A DNA stretch of 31,699 nucleotides from a virus: positions 1 to 31,699 of the IMG/VR virus record IMGVR_UViG_3300025118_004034, one strand, 5' to 3'. The notes under the pieces are model-generated. The model had not been told where the DNA came from and searched no databases. It was given only the letters and a program-made list of their open reading frames with translations. Positions 3,736-31,570 of this stretch are shown here, piece by piece. Position numbers and translations under genes: made by a program. The number at the start of each line of letters is the position of its first letter. The first letter of the stretch is position 1.

Positions 3736-3892
3736 CGAGGTCCCGTTGCGCCAGCTCTCTGACGAGACTGGAATTAACAGCGGGTCACTTTGGCGACTAG
3801 CTACAGGGGAACGATTCCCTACATTCAAGACCCTTAATACACTAGCTAACCTACGAGGCTACCACCTCCAGATAACCCTGATACCCCAATGA
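3662..3892 (+). CDS. XRE/Cro-type helix-turn-helix protein
   Basis: A 76-residue putative DNA-binding protein. After a charged N-terminal helix it has a Cro/CI-like unit: PLRQLSDETGINSGSLWRLA, then GERFPTFKTLNTLANL, the usual spacing of helices 2-5 in XRE domains. It probably binds an operator and regulates early or middle genes. The frame is also open from a TTG at 3650, but the ATG at 3662, preceded by GAAGAG, is the more likely start. It overlaps the preceding gene by 74 bp and the next gene by ATGA, suggesting translational coupling. Confidence 0.75.
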   Translation: MKKPRNQSLETIEDQVQQIVKELIDEVPLRQLSDETGINSGSLWRLATGERFPTFKTLNTLANLRGYHLQITLIPQ

Positions 3893-4146
3893 TTGCAGAC
3901 GACCTAACCAAAGACAGAGGTGAGACATACGGCTCACCCTCCGACAACCACCAGAGGACAGCTAAACTATGGACAGCCTACCTCCTCATTAGACCATCGG
4001 GAGAGCTACTGACTCCAGAAGATGTCTGCATGATGAATATTCTGCAGAAGATCTCCCGCGCTCAGCATGGAGCGCGAGACATTGATACCATCCTAGACAT
4101 TCAAGGCTACGCCCAAAATATACTGGAGATATGGGATGAAGCTTGA
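3889..4146 (+). CDS. DUF6378-like small phage protein
   Basis: An 85-residue protein that matches, from memory, the DUF6378 pattern of phage proteins: DRGETYGSPSDNHQRTAKLW near the N-terminus, then LLTPEDVCMMNILQKISR, then DIQGYAQNILEIW. The molecular function of that family is not known to me. It begins at an ATGA overlap with the helix-turn-helix gene and overlaps the next gene by 11 bp. There are no membrane or metal-binding motifs. The product length is typical for a minimal version of the domain. Confidence 0.82.
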   Translation: MIADDLTKDRGETYGSPSDNHQRTAKLWTAYLLIRPSGELLTPEDVCMMNILQKISRAQHGARDIDTILDIQGYAQNILEIWDEA

Positions 4147-4594: not shown

Positions 4595-4970
4595 GGGTCC
4601 TAGCCTGCTCGTGTAGACGCCGGATCTCGATTAGGACTCTCTTCTGCGTCTCACTTTGAATCACTCTATATAGTGCGTCCGTATAGTCGATTCCAGACTG
4701 AGCTACGACATCATAGACCTTCTTCTCTGCGGCCTGAATGAGGGCGAACTCACGGAACCTAGTCCACGCTAGCATGGTGGCCGTAGTAGATACATCAGGG
4801 TCGTCGAGGGCTAAGCCGTACTTTGACGCGTAATGTCTAGCTAATTCGATTTTCTGCGCTCGTGCGACAAGTAGCCCTTCGACTTCCCCGAAATGCTCTC
4901 TGGCTAGCTCTTCGGGGCCTTTCATAACTCCCTGGAATCCGCTCTTCTTCTTCTTGTGGGCAGGCTCCAT
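4539..4970 (-). CDS. Hypothetical protein ending the late operon; weak candidate for small terminase
   Basis: A 143-residue protein counted from the ATG at 4970. That ATG overlaps the RuvC gene's stop in a TAATGG junction, so I prefer it to an in-frame TTG at 5003. The N-terminus is basic (AHKKKKSGFQG). The middle is helical (LAREHFGEVEGLLVARAQKI) and the C-terminal third looks like a coiled coil (QKRVLIEIRRLHEQARTLTQ). A basic N-terminus, helical core and oligomerising tail would suit a small terminase subunit, which is otherwise missing. No recognised domain supports this, and it lies far from the large terminase. Its 3' end overlaps the convergent + strand regulator gene by 56 bp. Confidence 0.78.
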   Translation of the reverse strand: MEPAHKKKKSGFQGVMKGPEELAREHFGEVEGLLVARAQKIELARHYASKYGLALDDPDVSTTATMLAWTRFREFALIQAAEKKVYDVVAQSGIDYTDALYRVIQSETQKRVLIEIRRLHEQARTLTQDLGDLRDQQDSSDKP

Positions 4971-5494
4971 TATACAACCGTCCCTGCCTTCAAGCCATAA
5001 CAAGCAACCGCCGCCAGGATAGCGTCATTCTCATGGCTAGTCCTATTCCCCTCCCCTATCCAAGTAGCCACTAACTCCTTAATCTCCCTCTTCTTGGGAT
5101 ACTTCTTACTCGAGAGAGGGATATCTAGGCACCTCATGGCCACTCGCTTTAGCGAAATTGGATGAAGATGCTTGAATGGAATGTTCTTGTCCTTAGCCCA
5201 AGCTGTCACTATACCTGTTACATGCCAGATAAGAGCAGTAGTTCGGACGCGTCTCATGATTAGCGTCGGCGACTCAGCTCCCACGCCCTTGAAAGGACCA
5301 TAAGTAGCCCAGATTTTGTCCAGCTCAGGATGGAGACGGTCAGCGAAGCGCATCGGAGAAGACGCTGAACCCACAGATATGGACTTAGAAAATAGAAGAC
5401 GCCTAAGAGAGTCCTCACCTTTTCCTTGAGCCACATCCACAACGGCGAGACCGAGGTTAGCATAGCCTGGATCAACTCCTAGAATCAGAGTCAC
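4970..5494 (-). CDS. ruvC: RuvC-like Holliday junction resolvase
   Basis: A 174-residue member of the RuvC/RNase H-fold resolvases, which cut four-way junctions. In a phage late operon this normally clears branches before packaging. The catalytic set is visible: Asp8 in ILGVDPGYANLG, Glu74 in GVGAESP, then H154 and D157 in SHENDAILAAVACYG. A His in the third position is known from Thermus RuvC, so this set should still be active. Translation must start at GTG (5494), because an in-frame stop lies two codons upstream and later starts lose Asp8. The first 23 bp overlap the lipoprotein gene, and the stop overlaps the next ATG (TAATG). Confidence 0.92.
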   Translation of the reverse strand: MTLILGVDPGYANLGLAVVDVAQGKGEDSLRRLLFSKSISVGSASSPMRFADRLHPELDKIWATYGPFKGVGAESPTLIMRRVRTTALIWHVTGIVTAWAKDKNIPFKHLHPISLKRVAMRCLDIPLSSKKYPKKREIKELVATWIGEGNRTSHENDAILAAVACYGLKAGTVV

Positions 5495-5783
5495 TACCTA
5501 GTTTGGCCTCCAACCAGCTTTTCAGAGCAGAAAAGGGGAGAACAAGAAGGTTGAGAATCGTCGTCCAGAGTGTAGTCAAGGGAGCCCGGACGGCAGGAAA
5601 GATGAAGACGAGTAGGACACTTAGCCACGCAAACTTCCAGAGAGATTCTGCTGGAGAGCCGACGAAATCGGGGACAACTGTAGGCATATCAGATGTTTCT
5701 CCGGACGCTCCAGAGAAGGGATTGAGAATGCTACAGGAGGTCACCACTAATGCTGCTACTGCTAGTAATCGGATTTGTTTCAT
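5472..5783 (-). CDS. Putative lipoprotein with an added membrane segment, lysis-module candidate
   Basis: A 103-residue protein. Its N-terminus is a lipoprotein signal: Lys3, Arg5, a hydrophobic stretch (LLAVAALVV) and a lipobox ending at Cys17 (VTSC). After a short Pro/Ser linker comes a strong hydrophobic segment (FAWLSVLLVFIFPAV), then a second amphipathic or membrane-associated stretch (LWTTILNLLVLPFSALKSWL) and a polar tail. The lipid signal recalls outer-membrane spanins, but those rarely carry extra membrane segments, so it may instead be a holin partner or an inner-membrane lysis protein. The start is in an ATGA overlap with the holin-like gene. Confidence 0.78.
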   Translation of the reverse strand: MKQIRLLAVAALVVTSCSILNPFSGASGETSDMPTVVPDFVGSPAESLWKFAWLSVLLVFIFPAVRAPLTTLWTTILNLLVLPFSALKSWLEAKLGSDSDSRS

Positions 5784-6040
5784 TTGTTTAGCCTCTCATC
5801 TATTCGGATGAGGAGATCGTGTACCTTATGGAGGAGCTTATCTTTGTCGTCCTTCTTTGCGAGACGAAGATAGGCGAACACCTCCTTCAGAATTAGGACG
5901 GCGACGCCTGCTCCCACACTCAACTCGAGTAAGGATGAGGATTCGCCTCCTTGAACGGCGGCTCTCACTAAGGCAGCTGAGGCAAAAGCCCCTCCTGCCA
6001 GTGATCCTCCGTAAAGAGTCTTTACTATTGTATAGTTCAT
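5780..6040 (-). CDS. Small membrane protein, probable holin
   Basis: An 86-residue protein with two putative membrane segments: residues about 9-29 (LYGGSLAGGAFASAALVRAA) and about 37-58 (LELSVGAGVAVLILKEVFAY). A highly charged C-terminal helix follows (KKDDKDKLLHKVHDLLIRID). Size, two-span topology, charged tail and position at the end of the late operon fit a class II-type holin. No sequence family is recognised. The ATG at 6040 overlaps the stop of the 1868-residue gene (TGATG); a GTG one codon earlier is possible. The downstream lipoprotein gene overlaps by ATGA, so these form a small coupled cassette. Confidence 0.8.
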   Translation of the reverse strand: MNYTIVKTLYGGSLAGGAFASAALVRAAVQGGESSSLLELSVGAGVAVLILKEVFAYLRLAKKDDKDKLLHKVHDLLIRIDERLNK

Positions 6041-9000
6041 CACTGATGTTTCTTTAGTTTAGTTATCTCACGCTGAAAATGGCTTCGCATATGCTTTAGC
6101 TCGACATTAAGCGCATCCGTATTCTCCGGAGTAGGATCTCGCTCAGCCGCTCTCCTGAACGCAAACTCGTTTCTAAGTTGGAGCCTCCTCAGGTATTCAA
6201 CTCTCTTTTCCGCTTCCAGCATTTTACCACCAGCCGCCTTGAATGCCCCAAAGAAACCAGCGGAAACAAAATCCTCATAGGACTGGTCATCCTCTAAGTT
6301 ATTTCCCAGCTCCTCGAACCCCGAATATCTCGCCGTGTCCTTTGCTATTCGCTGGATGATAGCTGTCTGCTCGAGCCCTTCTACTAAGCCGTTCATGATG
6401 CCCTTATCTATAGAGGTAGAGACAGGGTTAAGCATGACGTTGAGTTGCAGAAAGCCCGGCGCCTCTATCTTCCTGCCTGCTGATACAGACCTAATCTCAT
6501 CGGGAAGTTTGCCTGGGGAATCTAATACAGGAAGCATGTCATAGAACATGCCGATAGCCTGAAGTCCCTCAGTTGCAGGAATTAAGCGCCCTAAGTTAAC
6601 GGACAGTTCGTTCCAGTGAGCATGAGGTCGTCCATAGACGAAGTCGGTAGATACCTGGCTATCTCCTACTTCCATACCTCTATCTAGCGCCAGCATACTA
6701 TGAAGTCCCGTAGAGAACCTAGCAGGGTTCTTAGTGAAGTTGTCGTATGTATTAGACATAATCTTAGAGCCAAAAGTCCAGAAAGAGTTGAGCCTCTTCA
6801 TCACATTCTGAGATGTCGGAGATAGGTCACCGTAATCAAAGAACGTCCCTAATACGTACTTCTTCATGGAATTCTCTGGGGAGAAGCCCATAGCTAGTCC
6901 TGTATTGTATCCCCAAACGCGGGCGAAAATCTCCGACTGCTGACCAAACTCGCCGAGGACATCCATGAACTTCTCGGAGCCTCCTTCTCCTTCCATAATC
7001 ATATCCCGCAGAACTTTTGTCTCTCTCCTGATATCGTCTACCCCCTCTCCTACCATGGTATTGAACCCTCCGCCATGGAGGAACGTCTCCCAATACTCCT
7101 TTTGGGTAAGTTGGATGTCACCCACTTGGATAACGGTGTCGGCAAATACTCTTCTCTCTGCGTTTAACTTAGCTTCCCGGAAAGGGGCTAAACCTCTCCT
7201 ACCTAGGAGAGCACCTGATAGAGCTCCTCCCGCCATAAATTCTGGGCTATCTGCCCCCGCCAAAGAGTAGCCTAGTGCGGCCCCTAATCCTGCTGTCTTA
7301 GGCCGGGCACCTATGGAGCCCCCTGTCAGGCCACCTAGGGCGGCCCCCATGATCCCCTGGTCATCTTCTGCTTGCCACGCGCCTAAGCCCGCACCTGCAG
7401 CCGAACCAAGTAATGTCCTCTTAGCCTGACTCCCTGTGAGGCCACTATGGATGATCCCCATCTGGGTTCCGGGGAGTAGTTTATCTATTAATTGGGCCTT
7501 CTCGTCATACCCAACAGGGTTCTTCCCTATCAAACGTATGGTAGTCATGAGGCCTCGGGAAATGGCAGGTAAGTTAGCTCCATTAGCGTAAAGCATGGGA
7601 GCAGCCCCTAATGTATTGTGGACATGAAAGGCGAATTGAGTCGAAGTCAGCCCCATCTTCATAAGCCTATGGACACTGTCAAATAGGTGCAGCTCTGTTC
7701 CAGCCTGTCTTTCCATCTGCCTGACATTCTCAAGCAAACTAGATACGTGTCTGTTCTCACCAGCAATTACTTGGATACGGGCATCAGTAGGATCATGACC
7801 AAGTTTCCGTAGCCTTTCCGATTCCGCCTTCCTAGCTCTAAAGTGGCTAACCATATCTTCGCTACTCATGGTTGGCTCAAGGAAGTGGTGGACACCTGCT
7901 TCGCTAGACGCGTTACCTCTGAGGTGTGTTCTTGTGAATGCCTGAGAAGGGGTTGGGCCGATCCCGGCAGACAGCATCGTCATATCCTTACCCGTGACAG
8001 CCAAAGGGATCTTGACGAGTTTTCCCGTCCTATTATCTCTAATAAGAGCTATCCGACGAGGAAGATCAATGGTATCTCTGACTACCTTATGTGGATTCGT
8101 GGGTATCTTCCATCCAGCTCCTGCCGCAATGTTACCTGCTTCGGTAGCATCCCCTTCAATCAAGGCGCGAGCTTTGGCGTGACTAAGAAAATTGAGGACT
8201 GACTTTTTATCCTTCCCTCTCAGCGCTGGGTCGGCTTTGAATTGGTCGACCAAGTTACTTACCATCTCCTCCACTTTCTCTTGGCCTGTCGGAGATCCGC
8301 TTAGAAAGCTCGGTCTATCGTTCGGGGCTCGCTTCCCTCTGTTAAGGACGTGGCCCACTTCGTGCCACGCTACTATTTCGTGGAACTTCTTCGCTCCCCC
8401 ATTTTCTTTGAGGAATTCGTGGAAACCTTTGAGGTCACCTCCTGTAACTCGGGACATACTGACGTCATACAAACCCTGCACCAGAACTCTTTTGGCCTCC
8501 TCGGCCTTCTTCTTAGTGAACTGACCTGTGACGCTGGATAGGTATTCGTTAGCGTAAGTCTCATAGTGTTTCCATACCTCCTTCTGGTCTACTCCTGGTT
8601 TGAATGCTGCCTTCAGGAACTTGGCATAGATAGGATTAGTCGCAGATCCTGCCTCGATCGCCTTCAGTCTTTTGGGTATTCTATCAAACCAGGTCTTGCT
8701 GGCCATCGAGTCGATATTAATGTTGACTACACCGTCATTGAAGCTGGAATAGCTGCCCTTCCCTCTCTTAGTAGTGATTTTGACTTCCTTGACCCCTACC
8801 TCCTCCATAAGACGGGCCCTCATGCGGGCTGTCGTATCACCTATTCCGGGTGCTGGATAACTCGTAGGGGAGGGGTGTAACCTTGATTTCTGGGCCTTTC
8901 TTACTTCATCTGCTAGTCTGCCAAACTCCGCTTTGGTCATGGGATCCCCTAAGCCCACTGTCTCTATAGAAGACATATTCATATCTTCCATCCAGCCCAC

Positions 9001-11646
9001 GAGCTCTCCTGACACGAACTTGCGTTCGCCCTTAGTAGTCACGTTATCGATGATATCCGATATCTCTTGGCCTCGGATTAGCTTAGAGGTACTGACTATC
9101 CTAGCTACGAACGGGTCGGTCACCTCCGATGCCAGCAACCGAGGATCTTCCTCCCTGATTATATCTAGAATCTTGTCGACAAACTCCCCTCCCTCATCGT
9201 GTCCGCTTAGTCCTTCAATAAGATCATTCGCTTCTGCTCTCGTGATGGTACGGAATTTCGTTGGCCGACGATGTTTGGCTCTTACCTGGGTAAGAATGTG
9301 ACCCAAGCCCGGATTCTTCTGTAAATCTCCTTCTAGCCGTCCATACAACTCTGAGGCGCTGCTCGACAGTGTCCCGGGCATGTAACCGAAGATTGATACA
9401 TCTCCTACTAACCCTGCTTCCTCGGCTAGTTGCCTATGGGTAACCGATAGGTTAGCGTTGATGTCCATTAATTCGTCGACTATAGCTCCTGCCCCTGCTC
9501 TACGCGCTTCCTCGAATATGGGGGCAACCATCTGATCGTGGAGAATTCCCTGCTGCCTTGCCACAGATTGCACCTCGCCTTTAATCCTACCCCACAGCGC
9601 CGGTCCTCCCTCGAAATTGTCGTGATAGACCTGCTCTCCTGAAGGAGATTTCCAGCCCCTACCTCCACTAGAAGAGACAAATGAATCGTCTATGTGCCTC
9701 TTAATCTCCTCCAGCGACCCCTTAATACTACCTATAGCTAAGTGGTTATCGGCGAATTCTACTTCTTTAGCTGCGTCCTGGAACAGCGGCCCAGCAGTGT
9801 CCTCCGCCTTACGCGCAAAACCCGCTTCCTCGAATGCTCCGAATACCTGCTTCTTCCATCCAGATTCATGCTCGAATAGCAGCGCCCCTCCGGTCAAGCG
9901 GTCGAGATACTCTCCCATCTCGGTAACCATTCTATTTGAGTTGCTGATGTCACCACTTAGTAGGAGTTGCTCCATAGATATGAAATCCTCCTTACCTCCT
10001 GCCACTTGAGCGTAGAATGAGAACCTATCGGATATGTCCTGGGAATCCACCCCAAGAGCATTAGCTAGGGCGTCGTATAGAATGCCTACTCTCTTAGCTG
10101 TTGCCTGAAGATGCCTAGAATTCGCATGAGATGCGGCCCTGTCTGCTCTGACTACATCATCTACCTCTCTGAGCCCTGTGGCCCCTCCTGTGATGACCTT
10201 ATTTACCTTGCGTCTAAAGCTAGCGCCCGCCTCGAGTGCAGACATCTTAGTGATTCCGGCCTTGCTTGGGTCAGTTACGGCCTTCTTCCATTCAGGATCA
10301 ACTGCTGTTCTTTGGGCCACGTAGCCCAGACCCTCGTGAGTTAGTAGGCTATCTCCTGTCGACAAACCTTGAAACTGTTTAGCCAGCTCAAGGATATCCT
10401 CATTAGTTATATGTTTGGCTGCCTGCTCAATGACCTGCTCTCGTGCCTCGCCACTCAGCATCGCTGCTTCCTGAAGCATCTTTAGCCCTTTACTTCTAGT
10501 TCCTGATACGCCAATAAGGACGTCGAGACTGAGTCCAGGGGTGTCGAGAGCAAGGTCCATATTTGCCTGCTTTCCTTTGGAGGCTCCTTCAGCAGTTACG
10601 CGCTCCCAATAAGCGACCAAGTCGTTAATATCCCCCTTATCCGAAACCTTGGTCGGCGTCATAGCCGCTTTCCCCTCCATATAACGAATAAAATCGTCTT
10701 GAACTGGATTAACTAAATCCGAGTTAAATATCTTGGACGCTACTAGAGATAGGTGCCACCTAGATCCCCCCTTCACGAAGGACGACATAAAATCAACGGG
10801 GGCCCGCACTCCAGATGCGGCTACCTTTAGCCACTCTCCGACAGCAGTAGAACCAGATGCCCCAAAGCTATTCGCAACCCAGCTCATACCCTCTAGAGCC
10901 TTGGAGGGTACAGTCAGAGGGGCACTCAGCGTCGATCTAAATGGTTTAACCAGTAGGTCGCGCCAGTTGCCCTGTCTAGGAAGAGGTAAGTACCCTTTAT
11001 CTGCCTTACTGCGCATCCACTTAGGGTGGAATCTCCTGGGCACTAGGCCTAGAGGGTTGAGAGATGCTGTCATCTCCCCTTGATTCTCGATTACGTCGTC
11101 CAGTAAGTCATCACCTATCCCCTCCCTCTTAGCGAAAGCCGTAAAGTCGTCTGTAGTTTTTCCTAGTTTCGCTACCTCTCTCCTTCCTAGTTTTACTGCG
11201 TTACCTGCCTCGTCCACTACCTCGCCTTTCTTGACTACGCCAGCCAAAAAATCGGTTGAGGCGTTTACCGACTTACCTTTGAGCGATGCTTTAATGACTG
11301 GGGCAGCTTTAGCGGATGCGTTAATAGCTTTAGCTCCGTATAAGCCTCCTCTACCCCAAGCCGTGAGACTACCACTGAGATACGTTAGAGGGTCGGTCAG
11401 AATCTCGCCTAGCAGTTGGTTGGGTCCGCTCCTGCCCCACATTTCCTCTGGTGATACGTCTCGATGACGATCCGACAGCATGCTAAGACCTGGAATAAGA
11501 GACCAGTCAAGGAGACCCTCTTGAGTTAGTAATCCCCTCTCTCCCTGTGCTACCCTCATTGCCCTGTAGAGTACCTGCTGAGGCAGACCCAAAGTGGCAT
11601 TCCAGAATCTCTGGAAAGTTCCTAGATCGTTGTATCTTTGTTTCAT
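6040..11646 (-). CDS. Giant ejection (internal virion) protein, gp16-like, with embedded HExxH metalloprotease motif
   Basis: A 1868-residue protein at the place of T7 gp16: last of three large virion genes, before the holin. Such proteins leave the capsid with the DNA and build a channel across the cell envelope. Most of it is long polar helices. Residues about 1095-1099 read HEVGH (AWHEVGHVLNRG), a zinc metalloprotease core. E1123, E1126 and E1127 downstream are possible third ligands, and a beta-like stretch lies about 120 residues upstream (VVNINIDSM). Residues about 1400-1485 are Gly/Ala-rich zippers (MGAALGGLTGGSIGA, GLGAALGYSLAGA) that could insert into membrane. The frame is open to 11724, but the ATG at 11646, with AAGGAT upstream and an ATGA overlap, is the likely start. 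No lytic transglycosylase motif was found. Confidence 0.9.
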   Translation of the reverse strand: MKQRYNDLGTFQRFWNATLGLPQQVLYRAMRVAQGERGLLTQEGLLDWSLIPGLSMLSDRHRDVSPEEMWGRSGPNQLLGEILTDPLTYLSGSLTAWGRGGLYGAKAINASAKAAPVIKASLKGKSVNASTDFLAGVVKKGEVVDEAGNAVKLGRREVAKLGKTTDDFTAFAKREGIGDDLLDDVIENQGEMTASLNPLGLVPRRFHPKWMRSKADKGYLPLPRQGNWRDLLVKPFRSTLSAPLTVPSKALEGMSWVANSFGASGSTAVGEWLKVAASGVRAPVDFMSSFVKGGSRWHLSLVASKIFNSDLVNPVQDDFIRYMEGKAAMTPTKVSDKGDINDLVAYWERVTAEGASKGKQANMDLALDTPGLSLDVLIGVSGTRSKGLKMLQEAAMLSGEAREQVIEQAAKHITNEDILELAKQFQGLSTGDSLLTHEGLGYVAQRTAVDPEWKKAVTDPSKAGITKMSALEAGASFRRKVNKVITGGATGLREVDDVVRADRAASHANSRHLQATAKRVGILYDALANALGVDSQDISDRFSFYAQVAGGKEDFISMEQLLLSGDISNSNRMVTEMGEYLDRLTGGALLFEHESGWKKQVFGAFEEAGFARKAEDTAGPLFQDAAKEVEFADNHLAIGSIKGSLEEIKRHIDDSFVSSSGGRGWKSPSGEQVYHDNFEGGPALWGRIKGEVQSVARQQGILHDQMVAPIFEEARRAGAGAIVDELMDINANLSVTHRQLAEEAGLVGDVSIFGYMPGTLSSSASELYGRLEGDLQKNPGLGHILTQVRAKHRRPTKFRTITRAEANDLIEGLSGHDEGGEFVDKILDIIREEDPRLLASEVTDPFVARIVSTSKLIRGQEISDIIDNVTTKGERKFVSGELVGWMEDMNMSSIETVGLGDPMTKAEFGRLADEVRKAQKSRLHPSPTSYPAPGIGDTTARMRARLMEEVGVKEVKITTKRGKGSYSSFNDGVVNINIDSMASKTWFDRIPKRLKAIEAGSATNPIYAKFLKAAFKPGVDQKEVWKHYETYANEYLSSVTGQFTKKKAEEAKRVLVQGLYDVSMSRVTGGDLKGFHEFLKENGGAKKFHEIVAWHEVGHVLNRGKRAPNDRPSFLSGSPTGQEKVEEMVSNLVDQFKADPALRGKDKKSVLNFLSHAKARALIEGDATEAGNIAAGAGWKIPTNPHKVVRDTIDLPRRIALIRDNRTGKLVKIPLAVTGKDMTMLSAGIGPTPSQAFTRTHLRGNASSEAGVHHFLEPTMSSEDMVSHFRARKAESERLRKLGHDPTDARIQVIAGENRHVSSLLENVRQMERQAGTELHLFDSVHRLMKMGLTSTQFAFHVHNTLGAAPMLYANGANLPAISRGLMTTIRLIGKNPVGYDEKAQLIDKLLPGTQMGIIHSGLTGSQAKRTLLGSAAGAGLGAWQAEDDQGIMGAALGGLTGGSIGARPKTAGLGAALGYSLAGADSPEFMAGGALSGALLGRRGLAPFREAKLNAERRVFADTVIQVGDIQLTQKEYWETFLHGGGFNTMVGEGVDDIRRETKVLRDMIMEGEGGSEKFMDVLGEFGQQSEIFARVWGYNTGLAMGFSPENSMKKYVLGTFFDYGDLSPTSQNVMKRLNSFWTFGSKIMSNTYDNFTKNPARFSTGLHSMLALDRGMEVGDSQVSTDFVYGRPHAHWNELSVNLGRLIPATEGLQAIGMFYDMLPVLDSPGKLPDEIRSVSAGRKIEAPGFLQLNVMLNPVSTSIDKGIMNGLVEGLEQTAIIQRIAKDTARYSGFEELGNNLEDDQSYEDFVSAGFFGAFKAAGGKMLEAEKRVEYLRRLQLRNEFAFRRAAERDPTPENTDALNVELKHMRSHFQREITKLKKHQ

Positions 11647-31237: not shown

Positions 31238-31570
31238 TCACTCGTCGATTATCGCCCGATATACCCGACTGAAGGCCACCCCCCATTCGGGGCCGTGGTC
31301 CTCCTGAGTCGAGAACCAGCTAAGGCAGTGGGCGTATTCATGCATTAGCGTATCCTCTGCCTGGGCTGATTCCATGCCCGTGCAGATCCCTATTATAAAG
31401 GACCGTCCCCGCTTTGGGGTCTCCCTAAAGTCGGAATATCCGTGTTCTTCTTCTAATTTCCTGATGACAAGGCGAACCGAGAAGGGCAAAGGAAGCTTTA
31501 CCTCCAGGATATTGAGCATTTTGAGGAGCCGATCCCTGTATTCGGCCTTGCTGGGTGGGGCATTCTCCAT
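31238..31570 (-). CDS. Zinc metallopeptidase, SprT-like
   Basis: A 110-residue protein. It has the core H77-E78-x-x-H81 (MHEYAHCLSW) and H92 in DHGPEWG, so the ligand pattern HExxH-(10)-H, with a conserved-looking HGPxW loop and a final helix (FSRVYRAIIDE). This matches the minimal SprT/WLM-like metallopeptidases found in many phages, whose targets are mostly unknown. It is the first visible gene of the late operon, ahead of terminase. A weak GTGAG precedes the ATG. There is no signal peptide, so it probably acts in the cytoplasm. Confidence 0.85.
   Translation of the reverse strand: MENAPPSKAEYRDRLLKMLNILEVKLPLPFSVRLVIRKLEEEHGYSDFRETPKRGRSFIIGICTGMESAQAEDTLMHEYAHCLSWFSTQEDHGPEWGVAFSRVYRAIIDE

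Follow-up and report, generated by a model that had tools for sequence, protein, structure and literature searches.

The giant late protein of this virus, a chain of 1868 residues, carries the zinc-protease motif HEVGH, and the locus raises the question of whether a metalloprotease is built into an ejection-type protein and, if so, what it would do there. The window, that is, the whole stretch of 31,699 nucleotides that was analysed, is a 31.7-kb virus record. A near-identical record, IMGVR_UViG_3300006754_000044, shows 13 differences from it in 21.6 kb and none in the giant gene. Rightward replication-type genes, including a family A DNA polymerase gene, converge on a leftward late module that runs through terminase, scaffold-, capsid- and portal-like genes to two genes of 202 aa and 1083 aa and then the giant gene; the scaffold-, capsid- and portal-like genes were assigned by sequence inspection and order. 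The giant gene lies on the same strand as the terminase and capsid-/portal-like genes, and downstream of them. The last three genes stand in a gp14/gp15/gp16-like order, with size and position as the sole basis for assigning the first two.

Because this gene order resembles T7 gp14, gp15, gp16 and N4 gp52, gp51, gp50, an ejection role for the giant protein is plausible, as judged from order and size. The name of giant ejection protein given in the first-pass annotation fits on both of these counts, but no family match in Pfam, PHROGs or NCBIfam supports it. The same three collections revealed no enzymatic domain in the giant protein, and no hydrophobic segment rose above threshold. Likely lysis genes come after the giant gene: by eye, the downstream region (window 4970-6043, minus strand) holds a likely holin (5780-6043), a lipoprotein-like spanin (5472-5783) and a RuvC-like resolvase (4970-5494), and the last of these is conserved in relatives. 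Further along, an 85-aa ORF on the plus strand (3889-4146) matches PHROGs families labelled phosphofructokinase (1e-17), a label that is doubtful at such length.

A motif scan of the ORF confirmed HEVGH at residues 1095-1099, and E1123, E1126 and E1127, which had been named as candidate third zinc ligands, were found downstream in a predicted helix (Table 1). All 10 positions of the context VAWHEVGHVL fit the PROSITE zinc-protease signature. When the 1868-aa protein was shuffled, 0.061 HExxH and 0.002 full-signature matches were expected; for all ORFs of the window (10,409 aa) the corresponding values were 0.17 and 0.0085. The worry that a single motif in so long a chain might arise by chance thus holds to some degree for plain HExxH but hardly for the full signature, which is unlikely to be present in the giant protein by chance. 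HExxH occurs in only one other ORF of the window, a 110-aa SprT-like ORF located upstream of the terminase (31238-31570, minus strand). This ORF has HEYAH and a weak SprT-like Pfam match (8e-5, below cut-off), and may be regarded from its sequence as a second, independent zincin candidate; the contig L143 encodes a homologue of it near 1408-1515, with HEWAH.

Relatives of the giant protein were searched for by several routes. With the module around the motif or the whole giant protein as query, only the near-identical strain was found among IMG/VR, INPHARED phages and genome contigs. Nothing of use came from searches with the terminase, portal, gp15-like and capsid proteins, and the aligned terminases proved too divergent to serve as a route. 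An alignment of the DNA polymerase led to a pair of contigs with identities of 48% and 43%, one of which encodes a giant orthologue of 1883 aa whose N-terminal block aligns with that of the present giant protein at z = 27 relative to shuffled sequences. Further members came from alignments of the N-terminus: L145, L146, L147/L148, L149 (partial), L150, L152, L153, L154, L155 and L156 (partial). The resulting set comprises ten orthologue sequences on other viral contigs, nine of which cover the motif site while L156 stops short of it, and the complete ones measure 1826-2057 aa as stop-to-stop frames. Four giants of relatives that were tested, from this family of about 1830-2060 aa, matched no convincing Pfam or PHROGs family. 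The giants of L145, L146, L147, L150 and L152-L155 apparently represent an undescribed podovirus-like lineage. In L141, a 1290-aa gene precedes the giant orthologue.

Neither HExxH nor HExxxH was present anywhere in the protein in any of the ten orthologue sequences. Profile alignment placed HEVGH inside an insertion of about 265-270 residues in an otherwise orthologous giant protein; it was used instead of a whole-length MAFFT alignment, which paired the module with scattered, unrelated residues in the relatives. Residues 8-134 at the N-terminus matched the relatives by HMMER at 1.4e-27, and residues 890-1190 alone gave no match to them. Among the three hhalign matches the block at residues 725-889 is the weakest, and the left edge of the module is therefore less certain than its right edge. 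Since HEVGH lies within a bounded insertion, it behaves as a domain would. In the relatives the linker between the two motif blocks ranges from 48 to 100 residues, and this variable length suggests a site that tolerates insertions.

Table 1. Features of the giant gene and its product (window positions; residue numbers of the 1868-aa protein).
Feature	Residues	Window	Strand	Basis
Giant ejection-type protein (position gp16-like; final large gene in the late module)	1868 aa	6040..11646	-	gene order, size, ten orthologue sequences
Conserved N-terminal block	7-123	11278..11628	-	hhalign 96.2% vs relatives' profile 27-144
Conserved block before module	725-889	8980..9474	-	hhalign 79%, P 1.6e-5, template 1021-1208
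Inserted module, candidate zincin	890-1191	8074..8979	-	302 residues vs ~35 in family profile
Predicted N-terminal helix of module	935-949	8800..8844	-	AF2 models
Predicted three strands	954-960, 966-970, 973-979	8710..8787	-	AF2 models
Predicted all-helical insert, sheet to active-site helix	980-1084	8395..8709	-	AF2 models
Predicted active-site helix, AKKFHEIVAWHEVGHVLN	1085-1102	8341..8394	-	AF2 models
HEVGH, putative zinc-binding roles	1095-1099	8350..8364	-	motif scan of ORF
Predicted second helix, E1123/E1126/E1127	1119-1136	8239..8292	-	AF2 models
Conserved block after module	1192-1704	6535..8073	-	hhalign 98.7%, P 3.6e-16, template 1243-1684

Two further segments were observed in these alignments. 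The linker of L150, between its GKVVGVLDD and FIVLETDQG blocks and at the same site as the module, spans 100 residues and has a SAP-like appearance by eye; Pfam did not confirm this likeness. In the giant protein, Gly/Ala-rich repeats at residues ~1411-1490 (window 7177-7416, minus strand) mostly coincide with a gap in the alignment of the relatives, and possibly form a second lineage-specific insertion, which is perhaps membrane-active.

One check proposed for the motif was whether homologues keep both histidines and the glutamate. HExxH is indeed absent from each of the nine orthologues spanning the site, but what they lack is the whole module, not a motif lost by mutation; IMG/VR, INPHARED and the genome contigs yielded no homologue of the module in which His and Glu could be compared. 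This distribution bears on the possibility that a zinc enzyme is obligatory for virion maturation or for building the DNA channel across the phage family. Tailed phages commonly mature by proteolysis, and the giant gene sits in the late module, as such an enzyme would; the nine site-covering orthologues, however, have HExxH nowhere in the protein. An obligatory role was rejected because of these orthologues without the module, and maturation of the channel, one of the tasks originally suggested, is argued against in that form; we consider it very improbable. The module is unlikely to be needed for virion or channel building, because nine orthologues apparently manage without it, and for the same reason an effector fits better than obligatory maturation.

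We then examined whether the module is predicted to fold as a zincin. Two single-sequence AlphaFold2 models were made with different limits, and both were of low confidence (pLDDT 44.7 and 48.1, pTM 0.40 and 0.45). They agree on the order of elements: a helix, three strands, a helical insert, the HEVGH helix and a Glu-bearing helix. Without the helical insert, this is the order of the zincin core described by Iyer et al. (PMC5512222). When the module models were compared by Foldseek with the PDB and with viral proteins, nothing fell below E 0.05, and TM-scores were ~0.1-0.2. The best 50 PDB matches, all non-significant, include MATCAP, SPRTN, an M48-type peptidase, PprI, BlaR1 and abylysin, and the viral matches, likewise non-significant, include IrrE and SprT-like proteins; Foldseek also scores amino acids, and the motif itself may explain part of this recurrence of unrelated zincins. 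Of the two checks initially proposed, structure prediction gave a zincin-like order at low confidence, and fold search gave no significant fold.

Sequence searches gave no match in Pfam, PHROGs, NCBIfam or the PDB, and the MPTase-PolyVal profile PF18818 did not match at E 10. In hhalign comparisons with phage MPTase and IrrE profiles the module scored no better than decoys that kept only the motif; sequence profiles thus tell no more than the motif does. A scan for AWHE[VIL]GH picked out other giant phage proteins that have an HExxH domain, but in none is this a homologue of the module. These searches leave some room for a real insertion that is not a protease but helical, perhaps with a structural role or one in binding DNA or the envelope, and with HEVGH present by chance or as a relic. 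Such an insertion would agree with the mostly helical prediction, the lack of any sequence match or significant fold match, the profile scores at the level of motif-keeping decoys and the expectation of 0.06 plain HExxH in the giant protein. It agrees poorly with a full ten-position signature that is expected 0.002 times and with the zincin order of the predicted elements around the motif in both models, and we judge it somewhat unlikely. The metalloprotease proposed at the outset is favoured over a chance motif by the discrete inserted module and the zincin-like order, and is weakened by the low-confidence fold and the lack of a profile match. Overall, we regard a zincin as the likely identity of the module.

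Giant phage proteins that are injected have been described before as carrying zincin-like domains (PMC5512222; N4 vRNAP, PMC12633501), and the module probably represents a small zincin clade of its own in a carrier family that is itself uncharacterised. Zincin-like MPTases are reported to occur more widely than any other domain in the giant proteins that phages and plasmids deliver into hosts, and both self-processing and host targets have been proposed for them (Iyer et al. 2017, PMC5512222). Like the polyvalent MPTases of that study, the module is an HExxH domain inside a giant protein whose gene adjoins late virion genes, and shares, as predicted here at low confidence, their helix, three strands, HExxH helix and Glu helix. 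In contrast to them, it has no PF18818 match, resembles phage MPTases only at decoy level, and has a predicted helical insert of ~105 residues that separates the sheet from the active-site helix; nor did Pfam, PHROGs or NCBIfam show the giant protein to join several enzymatic domains of unrelated kinds, as polyvalent proteins do.

The ejected virion RNA polymerase of phage N4, gp50, has an HExxH-bearing C1 domain (PMC12633501), and we found HELVH at 2228 of this protein. In both cases an HExxH module sits within a giant protein that is ejected, presumably so in ours, and whose gene is the last of the large ones in a convergent late module. However, Pfam and PHROGs show no RNA polymerase module in the giant protein, and there is no significant sequence similarity between the two; a hairpin before HExxH in gp50 looks like that of the module, at a similarity that is not significant. 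Ejection proteins are modular and mosaic (PMC8954989); the word 'protease' is not mentioned in that review. Like T7 gp16 and gp16-like proteins (PMC8954989), the giant protein is large and placed after putative gp14-like and gp15-like genes, but it has no detectable sequence match to T7 gp16, and neither PHROGs nor the INPHARED phages gave a match to known internal virion proteins. No transglycosylase, which some internal virion proteins of T7-like phages carry, was found in it.

If the module is an enzyme, its substrate could be the giant protein itself, cleaved in the virion or after ejection so that its parts are sent to different places. Self-processing has been proposed for polyvalent proteins and for phage P1 DdrB (PMC5512222), and a position in mid-chain at a linker site would suit it. 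Nine orthologues, however, keep the flanking scaffold without the module, which argues against any general need of self-cleavage, and N4 vRNAP, with such a domain, is packaged unprocessed (PMC5512222). We therefore hold self-processing to be decidedly unlikely. Among the enzymatic readings, cleavage of a host protein ranks first and self-cleavage second, with a non-enzymatic insertion as a serious rival to both.

The explanation that we tentatively prefer, and that seems quite possible, is an optional zincin metallopeptidase carried as cargo in an ejection-type protein and most likely cleaving a host protein after injection. An ejection-type protein of the undescribed podovirus-like lineage would have gained an accessory module of ~270 residues. 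H1095 and H1099 of HEVGH would bind zinc, the catalytic Glu1096 would, by analogy with the family, activate water on the zinc, and the third ligand would come from the following helix, as Glu1123 or Glu1127. Carried by the ejection protein, the module would reach the host envelope or cytoplasm and most likely cut a host protein there at entry, any particular target being a guess. The data establish the motif, how rare it is, the orthologues and the insertion, and predict the zincin order of elements with low confidence; zinc binding, proteolysis, injection and target are what we infer for the module. A fuller version, in which a new zincin clade with a helical insert was spliced into a cargo-accepting linker of a giant ejection family and cuts one specific host protein at entry, is unlikely when taken as a whole.

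Phage proteases delivered at entry have often been predicted and seldom tested. Here the protease-like module is cleanly separable from its carrier, which belongs to a family that Pfam and PHROGs do not recognise, and the relatives offer natural with-and-without pairs for the role of a passenger enzyme. The linker in these ejection-type proteins is marked as a site able to accept cargo.
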